Assembly: GCA_002786065.1 (NCBI GenBank)
Contig: NHNY01000009.1
Coordinates: 372,001-436,000 of the forward strand
DNA: 64,000 nucleotides
Direction of reading: 5' to 3'
DNA from: Microcyclospora pomicola
Taxonomy: Eukaryota > Ascomycota > Dothideomycetes > Capnodiales
Below, one piece after another: positions 46,399 through 63,186 of the stretch; within the stretch, counting starts at the first letter, position 1; each line of letters starts with the position of its first letter. The notes under the pieces are model-generated. The model made no database searches. It saw only the letters and a list, made by a program, of their open reading frames with translations, and was not told the origin of the DNA. Position numbers and translations under genes: made by a program.

Positions 46399-47642
46399 AT
46401 GTCGTTTCAACCCCTCCTCAAAGCCACCGCTCTCCGCTCCCTCCGCGCCTCCTCCAAGACATATATCCAGCGCCTCGCGAACATCTCCTCCCACCTGCCC
46501 TCTTCAAGCTCTCCTAGGACCACCTCACGAGCCTTCCAAACCACAGCCGCGCGCAACATGGCGTCCATCCCCTCCACCATGAAAGCCGTCGTGATGGACA
46601 AGACCGGCGGCGTCGACGTGCTGCAGTACAAGACCGATGTCCCCGTGCCAGAACCCAAGGAGGGCCAGGTGTTGATCAAGAACGACGTCGTCGGGATCAA
46701 CTTCATTGATACGTAAGTCAGGCTTTCATTCCAGTATATCAGTACCTACTCGTCGAGACGTTGTCGTGTGATGCTGACACTCATATCCCGGAATGAAGAT
46801 ACTTCCGCACCGGCCTCTATCCCCCGCCGTACTTCCCCTACATCCTCGGCCGCGAGGGTGCCGGCACCATCGTGCGCGCCGCGGCGTCCGGTGAGCTCCA
46901 CGGGCTGAAGGAGGGCGATCGCGTCGTCTACCTGGCCGAAGCGGCGTATGGCGAGTACACGCCCGCACCCGCCGCCAAAGTCTACAAGCTGCCAGCGAAC
47001 GTCGACTCTACGTTAGCTGCGGCGGCGCTGCTGCAGGGCCTCACGGCGCTGACGATGATCCGGCAGAGCTACCACGTCAACAAGGGCGACTGGGTGCTGG
47101 TACACGCGGCGGCGGGCGGGACAGGGCTGTGGTTGGTGCAGCTGCTGGCCGCGGTGGGCGCCAACATCATCGGCACGGCGTCGACGGAGGACAAGATCGC
47201 GCTGGCACGGAAGGCGGGCGCACAGCATCTGATCAACTACACCAAGGAGGATGTCAAGACGAAGGTGGACGAGCTGACGAAAGGGCAGGGGGTGATTGCG
47301 GTGTTTGACGGGGTGGGCAAGAGCACATTCGATCTATCGCTGGACTGCTTGGCGCGCAACGGCAGTCTGGTGTCGTTTGGCAATGCGTCGGGCGCGGTGC
47401 CGGACGTCAAGGTCTCGCGCTTGAGCCCGAAGAACGCCAAATTGATGCGGCCGACGCTGTTTGTGTCGATCGCGACGCGCGAGCTGTATGAGACGTATGC
47501 GAAGGAGCTGTTTGAGGAGTTCATCGGCAAGGTCGATGTGAAGATTCACGAGACATACCCCTTGAGCAAGGTGGCGCAGGCACACAATGACCTTGAAGGG
47601 AGGGTGACCACGGGAAAGCTTTTGCTGGACCCCAGCAAGTAG
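46399..47642 (+). CDS. Zeta-crystallin-type NADPH quinone oxidoreductase
   Basis: Exons are 46399-46712 and 46799-47642 (86-nt intron, GTAAGT donor, CTGAC branch), giving 385 aa. The core is the medium-chain reductase fold without zinc ligands: MKAVVMDKTGGVDVLQYK, then NFIDTYFRTGLYP across the splice, then the NADPH-binding AAAGGTGLWLVQLL. It ends in the GKLLLDP block, as in yeast Zta1. It reduces quinones by one electron with NADPH and may bind AU-rich RNA, as zeta-crystallins do. The first 50 or so residues are Arg/Ser/Thr-rich without acids, a mitochondrial presequence. An internal ATG (46558) restores the standard cytosolic start. It is convergent with the short-chain dehydrogenase, 175 bp apart. 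Confidence 0.92.
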
Positions 47643-47817
47643 AATGGCCTTGTAGGCAGTGCGGATATGCAACGCTGTATAGTCATGATATGCTCCGGGA
47701 CGACCTGTATGTAGTAGTGTACATCGGAAATCACGATCTTCTGTGGAGGTTCCCTGGTCCACCACCAGCCTATTCCACCAAGATATGTCAGAGACCACAC
47801 TAAGCAAGTAACGTGTT

Positions 47818-48806
47818 TCAACCTTTACGGTGCATGGTCGTCGCCGCGGCCTCCGCGACCAGCGAGTCAGTGCTTGCTCCTCGCACCCACAACTACGCCA
47901 CAGACGAGCATCACTCACCTGATGGTTCGGAAACACCAGCATATCCGCCACGACCACGTTCTCCGGCCGTCCCGCCGCGAACACCACCGTCTCGGCGATG
48001 TCCTCGGGCGTCAGCGGCGTGACACCCTTGTAGACTGCGTCCGCCTTCGCTTTGTCGCCGTAGAACCGCACCACGCTGAACTCCGTCTCCACCTGGCCAG
48101 GGTCAATCTCCATGATCCGGATACGCGTCGAGATGAGCTCTTTCCGGACCGCGTCGGTGAACGTTCGCACCGCGGCTTTGGTTGCGCAGTAGATTGCGCC
48201 GCCGGGGTAACCCTCTCTCCCTGCGATCGAGCCGATGTTGATGATATCGCCCCGCCCGGCGCCTTCGTCCCGAGGCTTCATGCTGCGCAGCACCGTCTGC
48301 GTCATGTTGATCAGCCCCGTCAGGTTGGTCGACATCATGATGGCGATGTCTTCCTCCTTGATGTCGCCCGCCTTGTCCATGCCCCGCACCATGCCGGCAT
48401 TGTTCACCAGCACGTCGATGGCCTGGAACTCTGTCGGGAGATTGGAGATGAAGCTGCGGACGTCGTCGGCATTGCCGACATCCAGCTTCACCGGCAAGAC
48501 TTGGACGCCCGACCCGACCTCTTTGCTGATCTCCGCGGCGATCTCTTTCAGTGTGTCGATGCGTCGTGCGGTCAGGATCAGCTTGAGGTTCTGTGGACTC
48601 GTGCGCGCGAACTCGATGGCGGTTGCTCGGCCGATGCCTGAGCTGGCGCCGGTGACGAGGACGGTCTTGCCGGCGAGGCGCTTGCCCATTGCTGTGGCCA
48701 TGGTTCGGGAGGGCAACTTGATGCGAGGTTGGAGGGGTAGATGGTAAGGACGGAGGAGTGCGGATGTGGTGGTTTGGAGGGTATGTGCGAATCTACGAAG
48801 GTGCAT
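47818..48806 (-). CDS. Short-chain dehydrogenase (YdfG/YMR226C type)
   Basis: Exon 1 is 48806-47919 and exon 2 is 47850-47818, with a 68-nt intron (GTGAGT donor) and 306 aa in total. The Rossmann motif TGASSGIGRAT, NNAG, the catalytic GSIAG Ser, and YCATK (Tyr-x3-Lys) are all present. DPGQVETEFS and the short final exon (AAATTMHRKG) match the NADP-dependent 3-hydroxy acid dehydrogenase group (yeast Ymr226c, bacterial YdfG), which oxidises serine and related hydroxy acids or reduces their semialdehydes. The first 35 residues form a basic presequence (MHLRRFAHTLQ...), with a second ATG at 48701 giving MATAMGKRLAGKTV, so mitochondrial and cytosolic forms are possible. The start lies only 136 bp from the MULE. 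Confidence 0.9.
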
Positions 48807-48933
48807 GTGAAGATTTTAGAAGAAAGATTGTATAAGAAGCTGTGCTGCCTGGTAAATAATACCTCAAAGCAGATGCTGGAGCTGAGAGCAGTAGAGGAGA
48901 TGCTTCTACGCATTGCTCTCCGACTTCGCAGCA

Positions 48934-48942
48934 CAGCTCTAG
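48934..48942. repeat. 9-bp target-site duplication, left
   Basis: CAGCTCTAG directly abuts the left TIR and is repeated exactly at 60,086-60,094 after the right TIR. A 9-bp duplication is the hallmark of Mutator-superfamily insertion. Confidence 0.9.
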
Positions 48943-49038
48943 CGGAAGTGCTAGGGACAGTAGGTCTTTTGGCTAGGGACAGTAGGTTCTAGTAGGTTGT
49001 CCAGTAGGTGCGGGAGCTATTGAAAGCTTGTTCGTTAT
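48943..49038 (+). repeat. MULE terminal inverted repeat, left
   Basis: 96 bp, starting CGGAAGTGCTAGGGACAG, are inverted at 59,990-60,085 with a single G/A mismatch. Inside the TIR, CTAGGGACAGTAGGT occurs twice (48,951 and 48,973). The inner end stops in the centre of a TTCGTT palindrome. Confidence 0.95.
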
Positions 49039-51845
49039 GAAAGAATAGTGCAAAGTGCCAAGAAAATTGATTGGATACTGCTACAGAGAGGAGAGAGCAG
49101 AACAGCTGCTTGTTCGTTTTCAACGAACAAGCCATACCAAAAAAAACCGCTTAGCAGCGCTCCGGCATCTCTACTAACAAGTCCGCACGCTGCGCAGCTA
49201 AACTAAGACGACGGCGCTGCTTACCACGCTTATAAAGCACAGTAAAACTGATAGGGGCACTGAACAACTTGATTACTAAGTCGTAGAGGAGGTAGCAGAC
49301 TAGGCGAGCAAGCTTCTATAGTCTTTATTAGTCGTTTAAAACAAACAGCTATTAGTATTATATACCGAGATCCTGCTAGCGGCAGTCCGCTCCGCCTACA
49401 GACTAACACCTACAACCTACGCCTTAACTATCGCCTTATTATAGAAGTAACTATAGGGTATTAGATCCTATAGGTCGGTACCTACTAGGAGCTTATCCCT
49501 AGTAGGTATACGATTATTAATAGCGTAGCAGCCGACGTACTTCGGCAAAGAACGGCCCTAGCGCTAGAAATAAGCACTACAAACATTAGTTACTGTTCGT
49601 TACTAACGAATAGGAAGTAGTACTTACCGAAGCTCGTCCTCCGAACTAGCCGTAGGGTTAGATAGCTACGAGGCGGGGCCCTAGCGCGCTACGTACGCCT
49701 AGCACGCACGCTTCTCTGTAGTAGAGAGGGTTAGCTAGATACTATAACAGTTAGTTACTATTTGTTACAAACAAAGAGTAAGTAGAACTAACCGGTCTAA
49801 CTTGTTAATCTAGGCTACTTCTTAGATAGGGCGCGAGGGGGAGTAGGCAGTGAAGCTAGGCTACTATATATAGCTAGAAGGATTTAGCGGCTAGATAATA
49901 GACGCTATACTGTTATTGCTGTTATTGTTGTTGTTGCTATTGTTGTTGCTGTTGCTGTTAATGTTAATCGTTTTAAACGAATAGGGGGAAGAAAACTACG
50001 AAACTAAAGGAAGAAGGAAAATAAAGGTATGACTAGTTGTATATATAGAGAAGCTTAACAATAGGACTTACTAACAATAGAATAAGAGTGTAAGAGTTGT
50101 AGTTACATTTGATTATGTAGGTAGTTAACGATAGAACAATAGGAGAGGTTTAAAGCCTATTATTATTTTTAAGGCCTAGTCGTTTAAAACGAACAGGCTA
50201 TTATAGTTAATATTAACGTACGGGGGTCTTAAAGGATGTTAGTGCAGCATATGCTAATTGCCTTATAGGTAACAATAGCTAGAGGAAGCTATTGTTCTGC
50301 TATAATAGTGGCATCTAGCTGTTTGTTTTAAACGAACAGGCCTAAGATTGCTACTAGTATAGCTAAGGGTGCGGCAGCTAATATAGCTAATAGTATAGGT
50401 AATATCCCTACGGTTACTAAGGTCCCTAAGGTTGCTAGGGTTGCTAGTACTGCTAGTTCGTTTAAAGCGAAGAGACTAGTAGGTCTGCAGCTATATGCTC
50501 GAGCGCTTGCTATAGATATAACAGTAGATTAGGCACGCTATAGCCGATGTTTACAGTTAAAGAATGACCTTAATTAATACTTACTTAAGACGAGTAACCT
50601 AGTAAGGGCAATTGTAGGTTAATAGTTGATAAATACCCTTAGGTAGTGTTCGTTACAGACGAAGGGATAACCTTTAAACGAACCCTACGTAGTTTGGCGG
50701 TCCTCTAATAGCTAGCTACAACCTCTTCTATAACGAGAGGTTCTCGTCTGTTGCTATTAACACTAGTACTAGTCTCCCTCTGTTGTGTTAATCGTTGTAC
50801 TAATCGTTTAAAACGAGCAATCGTGCTTAGTTTAAGGATGATCTCCGGCCTTTCTTTAAAGGTCTCCTCCGCTAGTTTAATTAGCTAATAGCGATTAAAG
50901 TATAATGTCTATAACAATTGCTTCTTAAGTTTAAGGTCTCGTAAGGTATGTCTATAAGGGAGACTAGTAGACCTATAAAAAACCCCGGAGCATAGCTCTT
51001 CTAGTACCTCTTCGCCTGTTCGTTATAAACGAACAATAGCTTCTACTTCCCTGCTTACGAGGGTATGCTACGCTTCGAGCGTGCGAAGAGCATTCTGCTA
51101 TACCTTGCGCTAGACGCTAGCAAATAAGCGACTGTTTATTAAAAGAAGGCCCTAATAGTCTTCGTTTTAAACGAACTGCTAGACCTTAATCGCTCTCCCT
51201 TACTACTAAGGAATAAGGCGTTTAATAAATCCGAGGATATTACTCCGAGAGTTCTAAAGCTACTTCTTTATTACTACGTAAGAACCTTCTACTTAAGAGG
51301 TAGATTGTATTCTAAAGTAGATGAATTGATTCACCTTATAGTTAAGTAGCAAGTCGTTATAAACAAACTAATGCCGCTAGAGATAATCCTATCCCTTTAG
51401 CTAGTTCGTTTGTAACGAATAGCAGACCTTATTAAATGCTGCTTTGTCTTTCGCGTAGATTACTTACTAGTATAGGCTGTAAAACTCTGTAGTATTATTA
51501 GTGTTAACGAGCTAGCTATTGTCGTCTACTCGTATGCCGCGATGTGCTCGTATATAAGCATACACATCCTTATTAGCATACTATACATAAAGACGCCGGT
51601 TTAACATAGGGAATGTAGTCTTAAGGGCGTTAAGACAGGCCTAGTTACGGTCTATTACAAACAGCTTTAGAGCGTTTATTTGTTCTAAACGAAGAAGCTT
51701 ATCAAACTACTAGAGAGCCTACATAAAATCCTCCTCTTTCTTACTAGGGAGAAAGTATATAGCTACGTTAATTGTATAGTTAGTGCTAGTAATCCCGCAG
51801 ATGTTAAGTAGTAGCCGGTTATATCTGTTCGTTTTATACGTATAG
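49030..51845. repeat. Dispersed 17-19 nt palindrome, left arm
   Basis: The consensus is TGTTCGTTNNNAACGAACA: two 7-8 bp arms around exactly three bases. Copies start near 49030, 49111, 49331, 49595, 49759, 49968, 50179, 50321, 50456, 50648, 50803, 51018, 51162, 51353, 51404 and 51826. Weaker matches near 51649 and 51679 look like ordinary transposase codons. The best copies (49111, 50321, 51018) have nearly perfect arms. Spacing is roughly 50-420 bp, commonly 140-220 bp. Copies at 51353 and 51404 lie in transposase coding sequence in different reading frames. Confidence 0.8.
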
Positions 51846-51938
51846 TTAAGCAAGACAACGTTATAGAACTGCTAGAAGAGTGTTATTAAATAGGGATAGG
51901 CAATGAATAGCCGGTTAAGCTTACGCTCTTTGTTAATA
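49151..51938 (-). pseudogene. MULE transposase, DDE core and C-terminal part
   Basis: Read on the minus strand. The stretch at 51,875-51,819 gives VVLLNYTYKTNRYN, the MULE core where family members have LDCTYKTN; the first catalytic Asp is Asn here. NICGITSTNYT and FLPSKKEEDF follow. The stretch at 51,658-51,644 gives VIDRN (the second catalytic block, VTDRD in relatives), and 51,306-51,262 gives a VEGSYVVIKK block matching the family motif SRVEGSH. In-frame TAG/TAA codons sit where Gln or Trp is expected. The last stretch (about 49,240-49,151) is clean and ends KRGKQRRRLSLAAQRAD..C-stop, a basic tail. The Gypsy insertion separates it from the N-terminal part. Confidence 0.75.
49912..49965 (+). 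repeat. GTT/GCT trinucleotide microsatellite
   Basis: About 50 bp of alternating GTT and GCT triplets in the left arm of the MULE. On the minus strand this would read as an Asn/Ser or Gln-rich run. Confidence 0.75.
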
Positions 51939-51943
51939 ACGTG

Positions 51944-52159
51944 TATAAGGCCCCTTTCCTACTTAAAGTAAGGTTGAAGTTACGTGTCTCTAGTCTTAGC
52001 ATAAAGCGACACTTCGGTACGCGACCTACGTACCTCGTACGCTTTATAGATTATTCTCGGTAGTAACTGTATTATACTATTACTCCCCTACTTCTATGTA
52101 CTACGCTATCCTTTAGCATCTAGAAGCTACGCCTTAGTAGCCTATTACTGCCTCTTACA
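51944..52159 (+). repeat. 5' LTR of Gypsy element
   Basis: 216 bp, nearly identical to 58,928-59,143 (7 transitions). It starts TATAAGG and ends CCTCTTACA or equivalent, so the ends are inverted copies of each other, as expected of an LTR. It is flanked by the 5-bp duplication ACGTR. Confidence 0.93.
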
Positions 52160-55100
52160 ATTATAATCTATCTTTTAAGGAACATAGCCTAGTATATAGG
52201 ATAGAGGACATTTAGGAGATAGAAGGGCATAGCACCTATAAAAACCCTATAGAGACAACTGCGAGCGACACTATATAAGACGTAAGCGCGACGCTAGAAG
52301 AGCGCTTACACATCGCGCAGGAAAAGCGGGATCGTCTTATTATATAACGAGAGCTGTAGAGGGTAGAGGAAGAAGTAGCTATGCTTAAGAGAGGCAATAG
52401 CATCCCTAATAGCCTCCCTGATCATCTCTAAACTAGCTTAGCTATTACTACACTAAGATTCTTAGAACTTACTTCGAGTCTAGTAAGAAGCGCCGTATAG
52501 TCGCTACGTAAGCGTACGACTAGCGACGAAGAAGATAATGCGCAACCGCGTTTTAAAAAGCGGGACACTAAGCTAAAGGACTTAGATAAATACTATAGTA
52601 AGAGCATTAAGGAATATCGTAACTACGTACGCGATACAGAGCTTGCTACTATAAACGCTCTAGGAGCCTTCCTTATAGAAGAAAATCTTATTACTTAGGC
52701 TATGTAGTTTCTTAAGAGAGACCCGAAAGAAACCTAGTAGTCGGAGTATAAGCGACTAAAGAGCGTAGGTATCGCGCTTAACTAGGAACACTACAAGGCA
52801 TTTCTGCTAGATATCTAGGCAGACCTAGTTAATCGTAGTATAGAGGCAAGCTAGCAATATAAGAAAGCGGAGCAACGAGAGGGCTAATCTATAAGGGCCT
52901 TCGCTACCTTTCTTAAGATACTAGAAGCGTAGCTCCCCCTATACACCGAGGCGCAACGTATGTAATACCTGTTTATAGGAATAAGGCCAGAATTAAGGGC
53001 TTCTCTCTCTAACTATATAGTGATCCCTAACATAAGGGAGAAATTAATTACTGTCGTAACTACTATAGAGACGAATATACGCCCTACTAGAGGCGCACGA
53101 TTAGGATACGGTCGCATAACCGGAGTGTTATACTGTAGTCCTCGAGTCTCCTAAAGGACTCGAGGGAGTAGCAAATCGACGTACCCGACTCGCGCGCGCG
53201 ACGAGCGTCGCGCGCTAGAGCCGCGCAAGTATAACAACGATATAGCTATAGCACCTAAACTAGGCACTTGTTAGACCTGTAGAGAATTAGGTTATATCTT
53301 CCCTAACTATCTAAAGAAGAGGAAGGGTAGAAATCCTAATAGGACCCCTGTTAACTATGTTAAGGTAAGAAAAGCCTAAGCGCTTTACAAAGTATAGCTA
53401 ATGTACAGCGTAGGGTAATCGAAAAATTATCGGCTATAGAACGTAAGTATAGCGCGCAACGCGCGTATAGCAGCGAGACCGCACTTACAGCTATCCTTAA
53501 TCCTAGTGCAGCTATTACCCTAATTAATTAAGGGACAGCAGTAGACCTTAGTCTTAACCTAATCTCTAGCGACCTTCCTACGCTAGGATAGATAGGCGGC
53601 GAACGTAAGCATTGTTACGCTACGTACGAGATACGCGTACGAATAGTAGACGACTATAGTGCGTAGCGCGACATAGACTTCGTAGTATATAGGGTAGACC
53701 GTAAAGGAAGCGCTCTACTACTAGGTATGTATACCCTCTATAAATATAGTATTAACCTAGACTGTCTAGCTTAGACCTTTAGATATAGGCTAAGTAGTAA
53801 GGAAGATATCTAATATATAGAGGTAGAAGACTTTAATATAGATAAGGTAGTATTCCTTAGGCTCGTTGTTACTAATACACCTGTAGCGTAAGTGCGCGCG
53901 ATAAGCGACGTACTTCCGCTAGAACTTATAGAGAATATAGAAGTGTTTAATAGCGACAAGGCATCCTTATTACTATCGCATCGACAAACAGACTATCGAA
54001 TCGATATTATAGAAGGCAAGGAGCCTCTATATAGGCTACTATATAACCTATTAGAGCGCGAACTGCGCCTATTACACAAGTATCTTAAAGAGAATCTTAC
54101 GAGTAGTAGGATACGCTATAGCTACAGCCTAGCAGGGGCCCTAATCCTGTTCGTTCCTAAGAAGGATAGTACCCTTAGACTATGTGTTAATTATCGTAGT
54201 CTAAATGCAGTAACCGTTAAGAATAGGTGCCTGCTACTATTAATCGCGGAGACACTCGATCGCTTATCGGGCGTATATTACTATACGACCCTCGATCTTC
54301 GAGAGGCCTACTACAGGATTAGAATTAATCCTAGAGATAAATAGAAAACAGCCTTTCGCACCTACTATAGGCACTTCGAATACCTAGTAATGCCCTTCGG
54401 ACTTATAAACGCACCTACGACCTTCTAGTCGTACATTAATCGTGCGCTAGCAGGGCTGCTAGACACTGTGTGTATAGTCTATTTAGATAACATCTTGATC
54501 TTTATATATAGCGAGGATATCGCGATGTACTAGCGCGCGATTAACAAAGTACTTAAGAGACTTAAGCGACACGAACTGTACGTGAAATTGTCGAAATGCA
54601 CCTTCGCTACGAAGGAAGTATCGTTCCTAGGCTTTATTGTAAGCACTAAGGGAGTTACTATAGATGCCTTTAAGGTAGAGACTATTACTACCTAGCTAGA
54701 GCCTAAAAGCGTAAAGGAACTATAGACGTTCTTAGGATTCTCGAATTTCTATTAAAGGTTTGTCGTAGGTTACGCGCGTATTACAGTGCCCCTTATAGAC
54801 CTGCTTAAAGGAAGCAAGGCTTTTAACTAGAGTAGCAATGCTTAAGAAGCGTTCGATAGGCTTAAGACTGCCTATTTAACTACGCCTATTATGCGCTACT
54901 TTAACCTAGCGCGTAAGATCCGCATCGAAACAGATGCATCTAGATTTACGATCTCTAGTATCCTCTTATAGCTGTTTAAGGATAACTAATAGCACCCTAT
55001 TGCCTTTGTCTTAAGGAAGCTTTAAGAAGCAGAGAGAAATTAGGAAACTTATAATTAAGAGCTATTAGCTATTATGTACGCTTTTAAAACATAGCGACAT

Positions 55101-58100
55101 TATATTAAAGGAGCAAGCTCCTACGTAGATATGTACACCGATTATAACAACCTACGCGGCATACGCGCTATATAGAAGCTTAACCTGCGTTAAGCACGCT
55201 AGGCGGTTTACCTAGTAGCGTTCGATTTTAATATCCATCACACTGCTAGAGTTAAGAACCCTATAGATAGCCCTTCGCGAAGGCCTAATTACTACACTAA
55301 AAACTAAGCTATATAGAGATTGTTGCTAATATTGCAAAGAAAGCTAGTAGTAATAGCAGAAATCCGGACAATGTCCGAGAGTAGAGCACGAGGATCTACG
55401 CCCGAGTAGAGCTCGGTTGTAGACAGTAAGACGCTAGTTGCACGCCTATATAGCGTATTAGCGATAAACCCGGCTACTAGCGCTACTAGTTGCGAACAGT
55501 GCGTGCTACGCTATAAAGTACGTATGCTTGTAAGCGAACTTATAAAGGATGATTCTAGTATTAGTATGAATAGGATCCTTATAGCTTAGTAAAGGGACGC
55601 CTTTGTAATAAGGCGTAGGTCGCACGTAACATTAGCGTAGAAGCATCGCAGTAAGGGTAACCTTACATAGAGAGTTGACTAGAATGACCTTTTAAGATTT
55701 AAGGGCAGAATCTATGTGCTACTAGAATCGAGTATTCGGTAGGAGCTCTTAAAGCAGTACTATAACTATATTATAGCTAGCTATTTCGGCGCAAGTCGTA
55801 CGTACGACCTTCTTGTAAGAAGCTATTATTAGTAGGACATACGCAATGATATAGACGAATATGTCCGTACATGTACTATATACTAACAAATAAAAGTCGA
55901 AAGGTAATTGCCTTATAGAGAGCTAAGTTCCTTACCTATCCTTTTATAACTATTCTTAGAATTAACTATAGATTTTATTATAGGACTACCTCTAGTAAAG
56001 CGCGACAACTACGTATATAATGCGATCCTTATAGTAGTCGACTGCTACTTAAAGATAACTCGATATATCGCTATAAGGAAGAATTAGGATGTAAATAACC
56101 TTATAAAGCAGTTTTTTAATAAAATCTGTTGTAAATAGGGAGTACCTTAAGGTATTATAACTAATCGAGGCCTAACCTTTATATTAAGGTTCTAAAAGGA
56201 AATCTGCTTCTAATTGTAGGTTAAGAGGCGTTTTAGTACTACTTTCTACCTATAAAGTAATAGATAGACTAAAAGGCAGAACTAGATGCTTAAGTACTAC
56301 CTGCGCTACTACTACGTAGCAGAGCAGAGCGACTAGATAGACTTAATACCCTAAGCCGAATTCTACTATAATAATTCAAAATATATAAGTACTAGGCAGA
56401 GCCCTTTCTTTATTGTCTATAGTATATATACGAACATAGGAGATGCCTCTAAGAACAGAGTTATAGAAGGGGAGGTACCCGTAGCCGTAGCAAGAATTAA
56501 ACGTATACATAATGCACGTGAATCTCTCGAAAAACATTTGTAAGCGGTATAGGAACATTAGCAGAAATAGTTCAATCAGAATTATAGACCTATGTCCTTT
56601 AAGTAAGGGGACTTAGTATTACTAAGTACTAGAAACCTAAAGCTAGCATTACTAACCCGCAAAATGTTACCTAAATTCGTAGGACTATTTAGAGTGCGCG
56701 ACGTAGTTAGTGCGCAAGCCTATCGCCTATAGCTTATACTAAAGTATCGTATTTATAACGTGTTCTATGTAGAACTGCTTAAGCTATTCTATTAGAGACC
56801 TAGGGATCCTAAGCTAGATATAAAGGCACCTATATTAGTAGATAACGAAGGTTAGGAGCAATAGGAGGTAGAAAAGCTCCTTAATCGGCGAATTTATAAG
56901 GGAAATAGATAGTACCTAGTACGATAGAAAGGGTACTCTAAGGTATAGGATACCTAGATAAGTAGCGATAAACTCGATAGTACGAGCGAGTTGCGCCTCG
57001 AGTGCGATACTAGGCTAGACAACACTAGAAAGACTAGCTAAAATGATAAAGGCACACCTTAGAGAGGTAGATTAAGAGGAAGGCTAAGGAAGTTACTATA
57101 GGTCGTTATTACGAAGCTACAAGACTAGACGACGAAATACGCGCGCCCTACCTACGCACGTTAGGGTATTTATAGACATATCTAGTAGACACAAAATTAG
57201 AGAAGATAATGATCAAACAGCATAGTATTTAGCCCTAGCTAGCATAACTACTTATATAGGACATAAGCTACTTAAACGCTAACTATTAGAGAGCTAGGTG
57301 CGGACCTAGCGTTCTATATACGCTCCTTATAGATGCTTAAGCATCGTTAAAACTACTAAAATCCTTACTCCTATTATTAGTAGGGTCCTTACTATAGTTA
57401 GTAGTGCTACTACCTTCCTTATTACTCCTAGCTATGTTTCTAGGGGTTCTAGCACCTAGTAGACCTAACTCTTAATACGTACGTGTAGCAGCGATAGGGC
57501 GGGCAACGATCGGAGCCTCGGCGGCGGCGCGGCGCTCGGCTAAACGGTCTATAGTCTTAGTTATCTATTTACGGTGTTAGTATTATACGAGTAACGTGCG
57601 TGTATAGGGCGAACTTACGCCGAAGAGCGTAGCGTTTAAGTTACCTAGGCTGTTATTAATAGCGACGTTAGAGGCGATTAGGCGACGCGTGTTCGCGTTG
57701 CTAATACGCTACTTAGCTAGGATTAGGCGTAAGTAGTCTGTACTAGTAGTAGGGTTCCTAGTAGCTACATTTACCTGCTAGCCCTAGCGTGCTACGCTTA
57801 ACCTAAGCGCCTAGAGCGAGATAGTAGCAGCTTTCTAGGCACGCGCAAGCTTTAAGCCTATACGCTAGATAGCAGGGTCGTCCTTGCCTCTAGTACTATT
57901 AAGGGCAGTAACAGCTCTGTTATATCTCCTACGAAGGTTATATAGACGCTCGTAGCGCCCGTATATCTTAGGAGGGATCTATTCGAACAATTAGCGATAT
58001 ACCTACGCGACTCGTAAAGGAAAAACTCACTAAACTACAGCTACGATAGCTAGATATATAGTGCTTATACCTAGCTTCCTTAGGCTTATTATAGAGCTTG

Positions 58101-58927
58101 CTCTACTTAGCAATAGCGGAGAAGCACCTAGTGCAGGTAAGAATTTAAGGCTTAGATGCGTCCTTACGAAGGTCGGTATCGCGCTACATAACAGGCTCTA
58201 CGCGATTAAGCTAGCGCTTGCTAATGTACTTAGGGACACTAAAGATCATAATAGGTAATAAGATATTAGTACGCTAAACGTACGTACGATAGGTATGATG
58301 ATAGTAATATAGGTACGTTGCGAATAGACAGAAGAATATACTAAACAATTAGAAGGTGTAATAATATTATAGGAGGGAACTTCCTAGAAGGAAGTTTAAA
58401 GTTATAAACACAACAACAACAACATTAGCCCTACTATTAGCGTAACGCGCGTTATACCTACGCACAACAACAACAACGCGTTCGACACGGCAACGTGTAT
58501 TATAGCTTTACGACGAGGTTTAGAATATGTATATATAGACTATAGGTATTACAGACATTAAGAAGACCGTCGATATAGGGGTGTATAATAAGCGACATAG
58601 ATGTAGCAGCCTATAGGCTCGAGGAGATCTATCCTAGCTATAGACTCGGGTATAAGGCTTGTCGAGGAACCGTTAGCTATACATACGTGTAAGGCGCGAT
58701 CGCGAAGCGCGTCGCACTCTACGCGTGTACTGCTCTTATAGGCCCGAACTACTCCCTAGGGACTCTAATATAGCGAGCTTGTACTAAGCGAACTGCCGTC
58801 GTATATGTATACGATAAGCGTTCGGGAGACGACCGACTACCGCTTCGATCTCGGCTATCGTAGCTACAGAATCACTATATAGGAGACCTCTCTTATCCTA
58901 GAGACAGGATCTAAGGGGGAGGAGAGT

Positions 58928-59143
58928 TATAAGGCCCCTTTCCTACCTAAAGTAAGGTTAAAGTTACGTATCTCTAGTCTTAGTATAAAGCGACACTTCG
59001 GTACGCGACCTACGCACCTCGTACGCTTTATAGATTATTCTCGGTAGTAACTGTATTATACTATTACTCCCCTACTTCTATGTACTACGCTATCCTTTAG
59101 CATCTAGAAGCTACGCCCTAGTAGCCTATTACTGCCCCTTACA
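58928..59143 (+). repeat. 3' LTR of Gypsy element
   Basis: 216 bp matching the 5' LTR. It is preceded by a 14-bp purine tract that would serve as the plus-strand primer, and followed by ACGTA, the right copy of the target duplication. Confidence 0.93.
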
Positions 59144-59148
59144 ACGTA

Positions 59149-59900
59149 CTAGTAAAAGAATAGATCCGTCTATAATCGGGTTATTACTATAGCTACAATA
59201 CCTACAGTCTATCGAATGATCTGCTACTACTATAGCTTTATATTATAGATATCCTTACTTGTTTAAAACGAGTCTAGGAACTCCCTTTACAGTACAGCGA
59301 GTAACCGCTTCGTGTTAATACCTACTACAACATAAGCGAGAACTATAGCTTTAAGGCCTTCTATTCGTTGTAAACGACGATAGTTTAGTAGCTACTATGC
59401 ATTTATAGCAGTATAGTTATAAACTATACTAGTAGAGGTATAGCGGATCTCCTAAGGTCTATTCTAATAGTTGTCTATAACGAACAATACATACATCCTA
59501 TAGCTACTCTTATATAAGGATGTCTTTTGTAGCTAATCCCTTTTATCTAGCTTCCGCTTATTCTAGGTCTTGCTAGCTTATCTATAACGAGCATACTTCC
59601 TTATTCCTTACTTGCCCTTCTTCTAACTCGAGTCCTTTATAAGCTTATACTTATAGCTAGTTATCTATATATATATAAAGACTTCTAGTTCTTCTAATGT
59701 ATTAAAGGCCTATTTAGGTAGAGGAAGTAGGTTAGCCTGTTCGTTCTTAACGATCTATCCCTTAGCCTTATTACCTTCTATAACCTTTATATCCTCGAGA
59801 TCGGTATCGCTGTAATCTGTGTTATCTACCTATACGTTAGGGAAGGCATCGTTAAGAAGGGCATTATTATAAGACTGCTAAGAGGTATCTATACTGCTTA
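59149..59900 (-). pseudogene. MULE transposase, N-terminal part
   Basis: The minus strand of the right arm reads as an acidic N-terminus (TDYSDTDLEDIKVIEGNK), then AFNTLEELEVFI and QAYKG. This resembles the region before the FAR1/WRKY-like zinc domain in fungal MULE proteins (F-x-S/T-x-EEL..., then a GYA-like motif). Several in-frame TAG codons replace likely Gln codons. The reading is cut by the Gypsy insertion on its 3' side. The start codon is not clear, and family assignment of this part alone is weak. Confidence 0.5.
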
Positions 59901-60003
59901 TTAGTAACGAATAGTAGCGAAAATCTATATACAATGCTGTAGGAGAGACGCGACGACAACGCGTACAGGGATCTGAGTTATGCTCGTTTATAACGAACAA
60001 GCT
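59258..60003. repeat. Dispersed 17-19 nt palindrome, right arm
   Basis: The same TGTTCGTTNNNAACGAACA-type palindrome as in the left arm. Copies start near 59258, 59363, 59470, 59578, 59739, 59899 and 59984, spaced about 85-160 bp. All keep the 3-nt centre. The last copy overlaps the inner edge of the right TIR. Confidence 0.75.
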
Positions 60004-60085
60004 TTCAATAGCTCCCGCACCTACTGGACAACCTACTAGAACCTACTGTCCCTAGCTAAAAGACCTACTGTCCCTAGCACTTCCG
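59990..60085 (-). repeat. MULE terminal inverted repeat, right
   Basis: Reverse complement of 48,943-49,038 with one mismatch in 96 bp. The mismatch is a C-to-T change in a CpA context on the plus strand, consistent with RIP. Confidence 0.95.
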
Positions 60086-60094
60086 CAGCTCTAG
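60086..60094. repeat. 9-bp target-site duplication, right
   Basis: CAGCTCTAG, identical to 48,934-48,942 on the other side of the MULE. Confidence 0.9.
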
Positions 60095-60678
60095 TTGGGA
60101 TGTGAACGTTTAGTGACGTCAGCATGGACTGGACTGTATGTGCTGAAATGTGCACAGTGACAATTGAGATATCACACTCATGTCGAAAGAGTGCTCATGA
60201 GGATACCATGCGACCAATCGGTGAGAGATGCTCTGCGAAGATCTGGAGCCGCCCGCAATTGCTCTGTACGGGCCCGAATGAGCGCTGACGATCTCATATT
60301 TGTCTTGAATTGCTGTATTCGAGCTACCTGTGCTTTGCGGAATGGGTGTTATTCCAGACTCCAATGAAGTACTACCATCATTGGGAAGACATCGTCAAGC
60401 TGTCTTTATCATGGAAAGAAGCATAGTATCATCCACGGGAGAAGACTGTGGCTGAAAGTGTCCGACCGACATGCTCTCACGGACATTCCCAAAATCCGAG
60501 CGTGCAGGGATTTATGCTGAATGACCGCTGCACCTCTGCTGTGTTGGGAGTACATAAACGTAGGCATGGGTAGTGACTACGATAGTGCTCAAACACTTCA
60601 ACTGCTCACAGCTCTCATTGTTCATTGGAAAACGTACGACCACCATTCGAACCTACTCGATCGTCAGCCTCGCTTGCA
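60095..60678. promoter_or_regulatory. Promoter remnant between MULE and NmrA-like gene
   Basis: 584 bp of normal-composition DNA. Together with 48,807-48,933 it formed the original spacer between the divergent short-chain dehydrogenase and NmrA-like genes. Frames at 60,119-60,367 are short and unsupported. Confidence 0.5.
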
Positions 60679-61473
60679 ATGCCGACCTACTCGCTTCTTG
60701 GTGCCACTGGTGGAACTGGTTCGGCCATCTTACGCGCTCTTCTTGCCTCTCCTCCCGCGGATCTGACCCTCAACATCCTGGTTCGGAGCAAAGCCAAATT
60801 GCTCAAGGCTTTTCCGTCGCTCGAAGAGACATCGTCGATCAAGATCAAGATCCACGAAGGCAGCCCATCTGATGCTGCTGTGCTGTACAACTCTCTGGCA
60901 CACGCAAACGTCATCTTCATGTGTATTGCCACGAACATCAGCACTCCAGACGTTTCGGTAGCCCTCGACACCGCACAGGCTATTGTGCCCGCATTCGAGA
61001 GACATCGTGAAGAGCAAGGCTCGAAGTACACAACGCCATCCGTTCTTCTACTTCGCTCTGCAAGCCTGAATCAAGCGTTCGTCAGCAAGTACTCATGGCT
61101 ACAACATACTGTGATCACGTTCTGCGAGCACTACGTTTACGCAGATCTTCAACGCGCCCATGACTACTACAGTTCCATGAGTTCCCAGTCATCTGTGCCG
61201 AAGCTTTTGGTGCTGATTACCGTCGATCCTCCCGCAATCCATAATCCGGATGTGACAGAGCCCACGGGTCATGAACTCATGCTGGAGGGCACGCAAAGAC
61301 CATCCCTGAACTATGCGGATCTGGGAGTCGCTTTTGTTGAGATTGCGAGGAGGAAAGAGGATTTCGCGGGTCTTGAAGTCGCTGTTAGCGCTACTGGTAA
61401 AGTCGAAGAGAACTGGTCGCCACTGATCAAGAATTTGATTGTTGGAGCTCGAGCGAGGATTATTGGTTGGTGA
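60679..61473 (+). CDS. NmrA-like NAD(P)-binding protein
   Basis: This is an intronless 264-aa protein starting MPTYSLLGATGGTGSAIL, a Rossmann GxxGxxG motif of the atypical short-chain reductase/NmrA group. A LNILVRSKAKLLKAFP segment (dinucleotide ribose/phosphate contact) and an alternating beta-alpha pattern through LVLITVDPPAI follow. Near the C-terminus, YADLGVAFVEIAR matches the region before the last helix in NAD(P)-binding domain-10 proteins. The catalytic Tyr-x3-Lys of classical dehydrogenases is not evident, so it may be a redox sensor or a reductase with unknown substrate. Upstream in-frame sequence lacks an ATG, supporting the start at 60,679. Confidence 0.82.
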   Translation: MPTYSLLGATGGTGSAILRALLASPPADLTLNILVRSKAKLLKAFPSLEETSSIKIKIHEGSPSDAAVLYNSLAHANVIFMCIATNISTPDVSVALDTAQAIVPAFERHREEQGSKYTTPSVLLLRSASLNQAFVSKYSWLQHTVITFCEHYVYADLQRAHDYYSSMSSQSSVPKLLVLITVDPPAIHNPDVTEPTGHELMLEGTQRPSLNYADLGVAFVEIARRKEDFAGLEVAVSATGKVEENWSPLIKNLIVGARARIIGW

Positions 61474-61930
61474 TATCTTGTGGAAACGCTCGGAGCAATG
61501 TGATCAATCTGTAATCGAACCCGAGTCTGGCAATGAATTATTGGTCTTGTTCTACCAGACACTTGTAAACTTAATCTCCGTCAGATGAAATATGTCTTCG
61601 CCATCACATAAGTTGTGTTGCTTCGAGCAATACCGTTATACTCGTTCTCTATCTACACCAATTCGCGTGCAACCGCAGCCTGGAGACTGAAGACGTAGAA
61701 GGCGATAAGCTATGAGCAATGTGTCGCACGAAAGACCGACATTGGAGTACATGTGTATATCTCACAGAAGGAGACATGTACGAGCGCAGATGTGCAGATG
61801 GGGTGGACTTCTGCTGAATAAGCCTCCACAGCGTCCCAAAACAGTCAGGTTCTTCAATTTTCAGGCTTGCTTTGACATGACTGACATTAATGTTGTCTAC
61901 GATTTTACAACCGAGATCGCATGATCGAGC
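61474..61930. other. Intergenic upstream of ELP4
   Basis: 457 bp with only a short frame (61,712-61,924) of no recognised family. It contains the ELP4 promoter. Confidence 0.5.
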
Positions 61931-63186
61931 ATGGCATTTAGAAAACGGAACGCTCCTCTCGGCTCTGCAAGACCGTCTGTTGAGAGTGCTGCACCAAAAG
62001 AACTACCTGGAGTTCGGCCTTCGCCGTTAACATCACATCCCATCACGTCGACTGGGACTGCTTCTCTTGATGGTACTCTGGGCGGCCATGCTGGACTAGC
62101 ACTAGGTTCCAGCTTGCTGATCGAAGAAAGCGGGACGACAGATTTCGCTGGAGTGCTGCTGCGATTCTATGCCGCTCAAGGCTTATGCCAGGGCCAGATC
62201 GTGCATGTGGTTGGGGTAGGCAGCGAATGGGTGCGCGAGCTGCCTGGCGTGGCAGAGGAGAAAAGCAGTCGACGGACCGCCGTGAAGACCGAAGATGCAG
62301 ACGAGAAGATGCGGATTGCTTGGAGGTATGAGCGACTAGGTCCTGCGGGAGAAAGAGGTGCGTGGCAAACTTATCCTGGTAGCTTATATGTAGTCGTACC
62401 TAGCTTTGTACTGCTTGCCTTCATGCGTGTCTTATCCTTACAGTGTCATGGCGCTGATGGTAAGTCGCAGCACTTCCGGATCGTAGCCTTTCATCTATGA
62501 AGCCTGGCGCTACGGCTCAAGAGATGCCATTTTGCCACACGTTCGATCTTACGAAACGCCTCTCCATACCCGCTGATGCTCAGGTCCATCACATACCGAT
62601 CTCGCCGACACAAACCAACCCGTTCACACAGATTACAAGCGCTTTAGCTGCCAAACTCAAGTCTTCGCCGGCCGACTCTGTCCACCGAGTCGTCATACCA
62701 TCTATCCTGAGCCCAGCACTCTGGCCTCCTACCGCCAGCCTGCCGCAGCACTTCCTAGCATTCCTGCACAGCCTACGCGCACTCCTCAGACAGTATTCCG
62801 ACCGGCTGACGGTGCTCATGACTCTTCCCCTGGAACTATATCCACGATCATCCGGCCTGCTACGATCCGCCGAGATCTTGTCCGACGGCGTACTAGAACT
62901 CACCCCCTTCCCACATCTCATGGACTCGACCCATCCTCACAATCAGCAGTCGTCGTCCGAGAAGGACGAGCATCCCCAAGGAATGCTGAAGGTACATAAG
63001 TTGCCGCCCCTTACGGAAAGAGGCGAAGGCGGGGCTGGCGCAGGGAACAGTCTTGGGGATGATCTTGCATTCACGGTCAGTCGGCGGAAGTTCGTCATCA
63101 AGCCCTTCTCGCTACCTCCGATGGAGGGCGACGAGCAAGCGCAGCGAGAAGGGGCTGGGATCACAGCGAAGGATGTCGAGTTTTAA
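61931..63186 (+). CDS. ELP4: Elongator complex protein 4
   Basis: Exon 1 is 61931-62357 and exon 2 is 62471-63186, with a 113-nt intron (GTGCGT donor, GCTGAT branch, CGCAG acceptor) and 380 aa in total. A nearer acceptor at 62,450 is rejected because it leads to a stop. The start MAFRKRNAP and GTASLDGTLGGHAGLALGSS match the PAXNEB/Elp4 RecA-like ATPase fold, as do AWRYERLG, PFCHTFDLTKRL and the terminal RRKFVIKPFSLPP. The protein forms the Elp456 hexameric ring, which binds tRNA and helps the Elp123 core modify wobble uridine (mcm5/ncm5). As in other Elp4 proteins, a complete Walker A is absent. Confidence 0.92.

Follow-up and report, generated by a model that had tools for sequence, protein, structure and literature searches.

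Introduction

The transposons Ac/Ds and En/Spm carry many short subterminal sites for a protein of the element, and these sites are confined to the element ends. In the VANDAL elements of Arabidopsis, according to excerpts of the published accounts, the element-encoded anti-silencing protein VANC binds a repeated motif and brings about a loss of DNA methylation throughout the element (PMC5735166, PMC10398659). With regard to fungi, excerpts of the literature on Mutator-like elements (MULEs), including the Hop group and VdMULE, describe a PF10551 transposase, terminal inverted repeats (TIRs) of 73–86 bp and a length of 3.4–3.6 kb for three complete Verticillium elements, TIRs of 85–99 bp in one Ascomycota subgroup and target duplications of 8 bp (VdMULE1) or 9–10 bp (Mutyl) (PMC6446971, PMC3441728).

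Here, we describe a MULE from Microcyclospora pomicola (contig NHNY01000009.1), located within a 64-kb stretch of DNA that was analysed as a whole and is referred to as the window. The element is split by a Gypsy insert, and its two arms carry 23 short palindromes, a real and very strong feature that has apparently not been described before. Its PF10551 transposase and its comparable TIRs and target duplication are like those of the fungal MULEs, whereas the excerpts of the fungal accounts describe no internal palindrome array (PMC6446971, PMC3441728). Searches of the open-licence literature for motifs of fungal or Mutator elements that are palindromic, dispersed or placed at regular intervals revealed no account of such an array.

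Results

Twenty-Three Palindromes Are Concentrated in One Element

When the 19-mer TGTTCGTTNNNAACGAACA was searched for with up to three mismatches, 18 matches were found in the window, all of them within the MULE arms, in comparison with a chance expectation of 0.18 per window (100 shuffles) and of 0.006 for the arms (500 dinucleotide shuffles, largest count 1). An earlier interpretation made from the letters alone (the sequence-only reading) had named equal density in shuffled sequence as a point that would count against the array, and no such equality was observed. The arms held 21 sites at ≤4 mismatches and 22 at ≤5, and site 59256, with one mismatch to the core TCGTTNNNAACGA and six to the 19-mer, brought the total to 23, in line with the approximately 23 palindromes of fixed geometry reported in that reading. 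This corresponds to one palindrome per ~180 nt of element. The core was present with at most one mismatch at 19 sites and exactly at 11. The three central bases described earlier were also recovered: a spacer of 3 yielded 18 sites, whereas every other value between 0 and 14 gave 0–3. A spacer of −1 gave seven, which are probably the sites already counted, read in a shifted register. The sites are listed below without strand, and the figures are mismatches to the 19-mer unless the core is named.

Palindrome 1, 49029..49047: 2; inner edge of the left TIR
Palindrome 2, 49111..49129: 0; perfect 11-bp arms at 49108-49132
Palindrome 3, 49329..49347: 3
Palindrome 4, 49594..49612: 1
Palindrome 5, 49759..49777: 4
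Palindrome 6, 49965..49983: 3
Palindrome 7, 50177..50195: 2
Palindrome 8, 50320..50338: 1
Palindrome 9, 50455..50473: 3
Palindrome 10, 50647..50665: 3; transposase frame, near its uncertain 3' end
Palindrome 11, 50801..50819: 3; transposase frame, near its uncertain 3' end
Palindrome 12, 51017..51035: 0; transposase frame
Palindrome 13, 51159..51177: 2; transposase frame
Palindrome 14, 51351..51369: 5, core 1; transposase frame
Palindrome 15, 51403..51421: 2; transposase frame; residue 447 of the relative P0001 nearby, 14 nt by alignment
Palindrome 16, 51677..51695: 3; MULE domain; place in common with P0001 residue 350
Palindrome 17, 51826..51844: 3; MULE domain, covering the conserved KTNRYNR codons
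Palindrome 18, 59256..59274: core 1, 19-mer 6; place in common with P0001 residue 224
Palindrome 19, 59362..59380: 3; transposase frame
Palindrome 20, 59468..59486: 4; transposase frame
Palindrome 21, 59738..59756: 2; transposase frame; place in common with P0001 residue 60
Palindrome 22, 59895..59913: 4; near the presumed transposase start
Palindrome 23, 59981..59999: 1; inner edge of the right TIR

As the sequence-only reading had stated, the 19-mer at ≤3 mismatches was absent from the Gypsy insert (7.2 kb), from the 48.9 kb on the left and from the 3.9 kb of the right flank; a laxer 17-mer at ≤3 mismatches matched host DNA three times (6418, 7418 and 29590). A search of all 5-mer inverted pairs with spacers 0–12 ranked TCGTT-N3 first in the arms (19 occurrences, and 16 for its one-base shift), in comparison with 10 for the best pair in Gypsy (CTATA, spacer 5) and 3–5 for the best pairs on the left side, which was divided into 13 consecutive stretches of 3.9 kb; the last of these enters the element and is the exception, with 12. 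Chance and composition were ruled out by the shuffles, by Gypsy as an internal control and by a simulation of repeat-induced point mutation (RIP), in which host DNA gave 0 motif sites in each of 20 runs.

The search was extended to the whole genome (23.37 Mb, 58 contigs), where the 19-mer at ≤3 mismatches gave 100 forward matches, including the 18 described here, versus 135 for a reversed-pattern control, and the exact core gave 37 forward matches (11 here) versus 37. Unrelated DNA is not enriched, and a dispersed host motif was rejected because the genome outside the element shows no excess.

Conservation was monitored over the 42 halves of the 21 sites with ≤4 mismatches. Counted outward from the centre, positions 2–10 showed A39, A41, C40, G35, A41, A32, C22 (T14, G6), A37 and G23 (A14) out of 42, and beyond ~12 bp from the centre the site flanks had little information in common. 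Duplication of one unit along the element was also rejected, given this scarcity of flank information and the fact that only one long-sharing pair stands out. In this pair (49576-49629 and 49741-49794), two palindromes 165 bp apart share 54 nt at 78%, perhaps as a local duplication of one lattice unit.

The Palindromes Are Evenly Spaced

Spacing was computed with the Gypsy insert subtracted by coordinate arithmetic. The gaps between the 21 sites ranged from 82 to 335 bp, with a mean of 188 and a coefficient of variation (CV) of 0.36, and none of 200,000 random placements, for which the CV was ~0.9, was as even. For the full set of 23 sites, the mean was 170 and the CV 0.37 (P 1e-5), and the CV was 0.38 (P 1.1e-4) with 18 sites, 0.47 (P 1.5e-3) with the 19 core sites and 0.55 (P 0.045) with the 11 exact cores; all of these P values depend on the site list, and the lists were picked after the data had been seen. 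The mean spacing is close to the nucleosome repeat. The scatter of 63–68 bp, however, is too wide for a claim of nucleosome phasing.

Palindromes within Transposase Codons

The transposase stretch holds 13 of the 23 sites, and these occupy all three codon phases (5/4/4), which widens the earlier observation of different frames. Palindromes are equally dense in this stretch (13 per ~2.29 kb) and in the left non-coding region (8 in 1.46 kb), with mean mismatches of 3.1 for these 13 sites and 2.0 for the ten others. Since the 3' end of the transposase is uncertain, sites 50647 and 50801 may be non-coding.

The coding sites were compared with two remote relatives of the transposase. A protein search with the RIP-damaged piece returned nothing at 1e-5; restricted to the MULE domain, it led to P0001, and P0001 led to P0002. 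P0001 (510 aa, 34–38% identity to the present transposase) is known as a protein only. Compared with P0002, and with P0001 where alignable, six sites (59362, 59256, 51826, 51677, 51403 and 51351) showed no 6–8-residue insertion in the present element, which indicates that those six arose in place. Sites 59738, 59895 and 59468 lie in gapped alignment stretches, where the insertion test is undecided, and sites 50647-51159 fall past the part covered by the relatives. Elsewhere in the family, insertion may account for some sites.

We also located the places where the residues of a relative could be encoded by the motif, using 300 residue shuffles as a control. For the 15-bp motif TTCGTTNNNAACGAA, P0001 showed three exact encodable places (FVQNE60, HSFQTK224 and FVSNE447) versus 0.03 in shuffles, and seven within one mismatch versus 0.66, no shuffle reaching three exact places or seven. 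The 17-bp motif gave no exact place, three within one mismatch (0.11 shuffled) and five within two (0.97). Among 30 half-site permutations, only the real one gave any exact place and more than three within one mismatch, and among spacers 0–9 only a spacer of 3 yielded more than one exact place. Transferred through the alignments, five of the seven places fell at 0–1 nt from one of nine of the element's own sites and the others at 14 and 31 nt; a distance of up to 15 nt from a site applies to 19% of all positions. One of the sites concerned, 51927, is weak (core with two mismatches), is outside the list of 23 and touches the Gypsy junction, so that four of the seven meet listed sites. In P0002, 15 places were found within two mismatches versus 5.5 expected (0/300 shuffles), and the next best permuted half-sites reached eight. 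Judged from the proteins, this comparison supports conservation in place in a remote relative, and the distant relative appears to carry palindromes too.

The FAR1 domain was detected in P0002 at 28.3 bits (cut-off 28.1), and P0001 scored 21.0, below the cut-off. The positions aligned with Cys, Cys, His and His of P0002, which we take to be zinc ligands, are all Tyr in the present element, and the Asp that precedes KTNRYNR in both relatives, presumably a catalytic residue, is Asn; both changes are as expected of a RIP-killed copy. A structure prediction for P0002 from a two-row alignment had a mean predicted local distance difference test score of 43, and no use was made of it. From the FVSNE insertion on, P0001 (residues 439-510) departs from the transposase family, as if the frame had changed there.

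Structure of the Element and of Its Insert

The coordinates given in the sequence-only reading, 49030..60003, fall slightly short of the true span of the element. The components of the element, listed from left to right, are as follows.

48943-60085: whole MULE, split by the Gypsy insert
48934..48942, no strand: left 9-bp target site duplication CAGCTCTAG, identical to 60086-60094, read by eye
48943..49044, plus strand: left TIR, ~102 bp, its end falling inside the palindrome at 49029
50500..51943, minus strand: C-terminal part of the broken transposase frame, PF10551 at ~51590-51859, 3' end uncertain
51944..59144, nominally plus strand: Gypsy long terminal repeat element within the transposase gene, RIP-like
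59145..59988, minus strand: N-terminal part of the broken transposase frame, aligning with the FAR1 region of P0001 and P0002
59984..60085, minus strand: right TIR, its end falling inside the palindrome at 59981
60086..60094, no strand: right 9-bp target site duplication CAGCTCTAG, read by eye

Once the Gypsy insert is removed, the MULE measures ~3.94 kb. Its PF10551 domain scored 50.3 bits against a cut-off of 27.6 (54 bits in the genome search), its TIRs are ~102 bp long, the arms 48942-49044 and 59984-60086 being 97% complementary, and its target duplication of 9 bp lies within the 8–11 bp looked for in a MULE. TIR identity stops inside a palindrome on both sides, which bears out the earlier claim that copies mark the inner TIR edges. 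No intact DDE transposase is present, as the C-terminal piece has 33 stops in its first 480 codons; this makes the element a dead copy and leaves its membership of the MULE superfamily unaffected. The N-terminal piece, for which Pfam gave no match, could be aligned with the N-terminal end of a relative at E 4e-7.

The terminal repeats of Gypsy comprise 217 nt and are 97% alike. Gypsy lies at or beside the weak palindrome 51927-51945 (core 51930-51942, two mismatches), and an apparent 5-bp duplication, ACGTG/ACGTA, was read by eye there and at 59144-59148. At this junction palindrome, the residues of both P0001 (FDINE) and P0002 (LVTNE) are compatible with the motif if one mismatch is allowed.

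RIP and Other Family Members in the Genome

Two RIP indices were used, with high TpA/ApT and a low substrate index, (CpA+TpG)/(ApC+GpT), as the criterion. The MULE arms were strongly RIP-like (2.0 and 0.50, respectively), as was Gypsy (1.96 and 0.42), in comparison with 0.55 and 1.29 for left-flank host DNA. In 500-bp steps, the RIP-like composition borders near 49000 and 60000, i.e., near the element ends. The 23 sites deviate from the 19-mer at 60 positions, comprising 17 CpA/TpG-to-TpA changes of the RIP type, 10 CpG transitions, 9 other transitions and 24 transversions. As the motif core contains neither CpA nor TpG, RIP wears the outer positions only and cannot erase the core. RIP accounts for the arm composition, many of the stops and 17 of the 60 deviations, and it does not create the motif. 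The numerous stops in the transposase frame, the RIP-like composition and the Gypsy insert mark the present copy as dead.

Neither a second MULE domain (PF10551 search) nor a second copy of the arms (DNA searches with both arms) was found in the genome. Besides the element itself, these searches returned one TIR remnant, C1:1648924-1649006, and simple-repeat matches in contig C55; C55:808489-808571 stems from a simple TTG/CTG-type repeat in the left arm (49910-49965). The solo TIR remnant belongs to the same family (83–85% identical), and the 3083 bp around it hold neither the 19-mer at ≤4 mismatches nor the core at ≤1. A plasmid collection gave no match, and no DNA of relatives was found in viral contigs or prokaryote genomes. 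A motif pattern scan of viral contigs returned at least 120 stretches; among the 80 listed, one had two sites and the rest one, and the scan was not used. No tRNA was found. In host DNA at 620-778, a 78-bp unit is present in two tandem copies that are 86% alike.

Discussion

With moderate confidence, we interpret the 23 palindromes as an evenly spread, element-wide array that is likely to be bound by a dimeric protein, which the element itself probably encodes. Of the three explanations that the sequence-only reading had offered, dimer-binding sites are thus favoured, hairpins are undercut by covariation at the shuffled level, and a self-spreading micro-palindrome is mostly contradicted. Over the 23 sites, pairing amounted to 82.1% versus 81.9% in shuffles, double changes to 5 versus 4.8 cells, and covariation to 0.139 versus 0.136. 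The two-fold symmetry, the constant spacer and the independent variation of the two halves speak for a protein dimer and against base pairing. Two identical subunits would read AACGAACA-type half-sites, and the reader would be either the transposase, whose relatives have a FAR1-type DNA-binding domain, or a companion protein that was lost. The lack of enrichment in the genome suggests that the reader belongs to the element, since a regulator of the host would be expected to have sites in other parts of the genome as well. A protein bound roughly once per nucleosome length would mark or coat the element along its entire length, from one TIR to the other, and such a coat might serve self-recognition, repression or protection from silencing, by analogy with VANC on VANDAL. 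That the transposase itself is the reader, as well as the purpose of the array, is what we infer from these features.

Several observations weigh against this interpretation. The array was seen in a single DNA copy, P0001 and P0002 being available as protein sequences only, and the binding protein is a prediction. According to excerpts of the account in question, the transposase sites of known MULEs are in the TIRs (PMC3310237); in the present element, no palindrome lies in the outermost 86 bp of either TIR. Near 51403, the motif-like peptide PYPFVSNE of P0001 constitutes an 8-residue (24-nt) insertion relative to both the present element and P0002. Sites 51826 and 51677 lie on protein motifs that are also found in P0002 and are therefore explained by protein conservation, and the alignment at P0001 residue 60 is supported in part by the very residues that the motif would encode. 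Furthermore, the reversed 17-bp control had one exact match in P0001 (P 0.007), where a spacer of 7 also gave 17 places within two mismatches versus 16 for a spacer of 3. In P0002, the stronger FAR1 match, there was no exact place, and two places had at most one mismatch (P 0.11); each of two permuted half-sites gave one exact place there.

The rival that survives best, which we nevertheless consider unlikely, is that the sites bind a recruited host DNA-binding protein, for instance for transcription or for holding off heterochromatin. Two-fold symmetric, independently varying half-sites would suit any homodimer, and the left region showed no second gene with a Pfam domain (six frames, stops as X; best E 0.12, 12.6 bits, cut-off 31.7). 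However, a host regulator would be expected to leave other sites, and outside the element there were 82 forward matches (≤3 mismatches) versus 135 for the reversed control, and 26 exact cores versus 37.

Selected hairpins in single-stranded DNA or RNA, with 8-bp stems and a 3-nt loop along the transcript, are improbable. Symmetry is perfect at some sites (49108-49132, with 11-bp arms), but pairing, double changes and covariation stayed at shuffled levels, so it is the letters that are kept and not the pairing, and Rfam gave no match at gathering scores in 47000-62000. We give equally little credence to a micro-palindrome that copied and inserted itself within the element. The many similar copies, the 54-nt pair at 78% with its possible 165-bp duplication, and the location of the P0001 peptide near 51403 in an 8-residue stretch absent from the present element and from P0002, where the alignment is weak, are in its favour; against it stand the six coding sites without insertion relative to P0002, the even spacing, the little flank shared beyond ~12 bp from the centre, the absence from Gypsy and flanks, and the lack of a genome excess. 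A product of RIP or of biased composition, to which the strongly RIP-like arms and a RIP-proof core without CpA or TpG might point, is already refuted at this level: dinucleotide shuffles of the arms gave 0.006 such sites on average, and there were none in Gypsy, which spans 7.2 kb and is just as RIP-like, or in host DNA subjected to simulated RIP.

Returning to dimer-binding sites, evenly spaced palindromes over coding sequence suggest selection for a DNA-level signal at the cost of protein sequence. This raises the question of whether a fungal transposase, or a companion, coats its own element and opposes silencing or RIP. Since the core holds no RIP target, the array may mark family members ruined by RIP. 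A more far-reaching version, put forward tentatively and with less confidence than the binding array as such, is that of a fungal Mutator family with an identity code of palindromes along its entire length, in codons of all three phases; its own transposase, as a dimer, would read this code and thereby coat, count or shield the element. Such a code would be a counterpart of VANC/VANDAL that spans the full length of the element and tolerates coding sequence, and it would be old enough to occur in elements with only ~35% protein identity.

In comparison with known systems, the palindromes may well work like an element-wide binding array, and among the systems that have been worked out, VANC on VANDAL comes closest. 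Like the motif of VANDAL elements, as described in excerpts of the accounts, the present one is short, enriched in one MULE family, rare in other elements and present in many copies per element (PMC5735166, PMC10398659). Its enrichment in the element did not extend to the genome. Unlike that motif, it is a 19-bp palindrome, evenly spaced, without tandem units and equally dense in codons: the VANDAL/VANC array sits in non-coding tandem repeats, whereas here 13 of 23 sites lie in the transposase stretch and share little flank. A VANC-like gene was not found in the left region, searched with Pfam only. The features compared place the array outside the VANC/VANDAL class, and unlike the terminal sites of Ac/Ds and En/Spm, it extends through the coding region.

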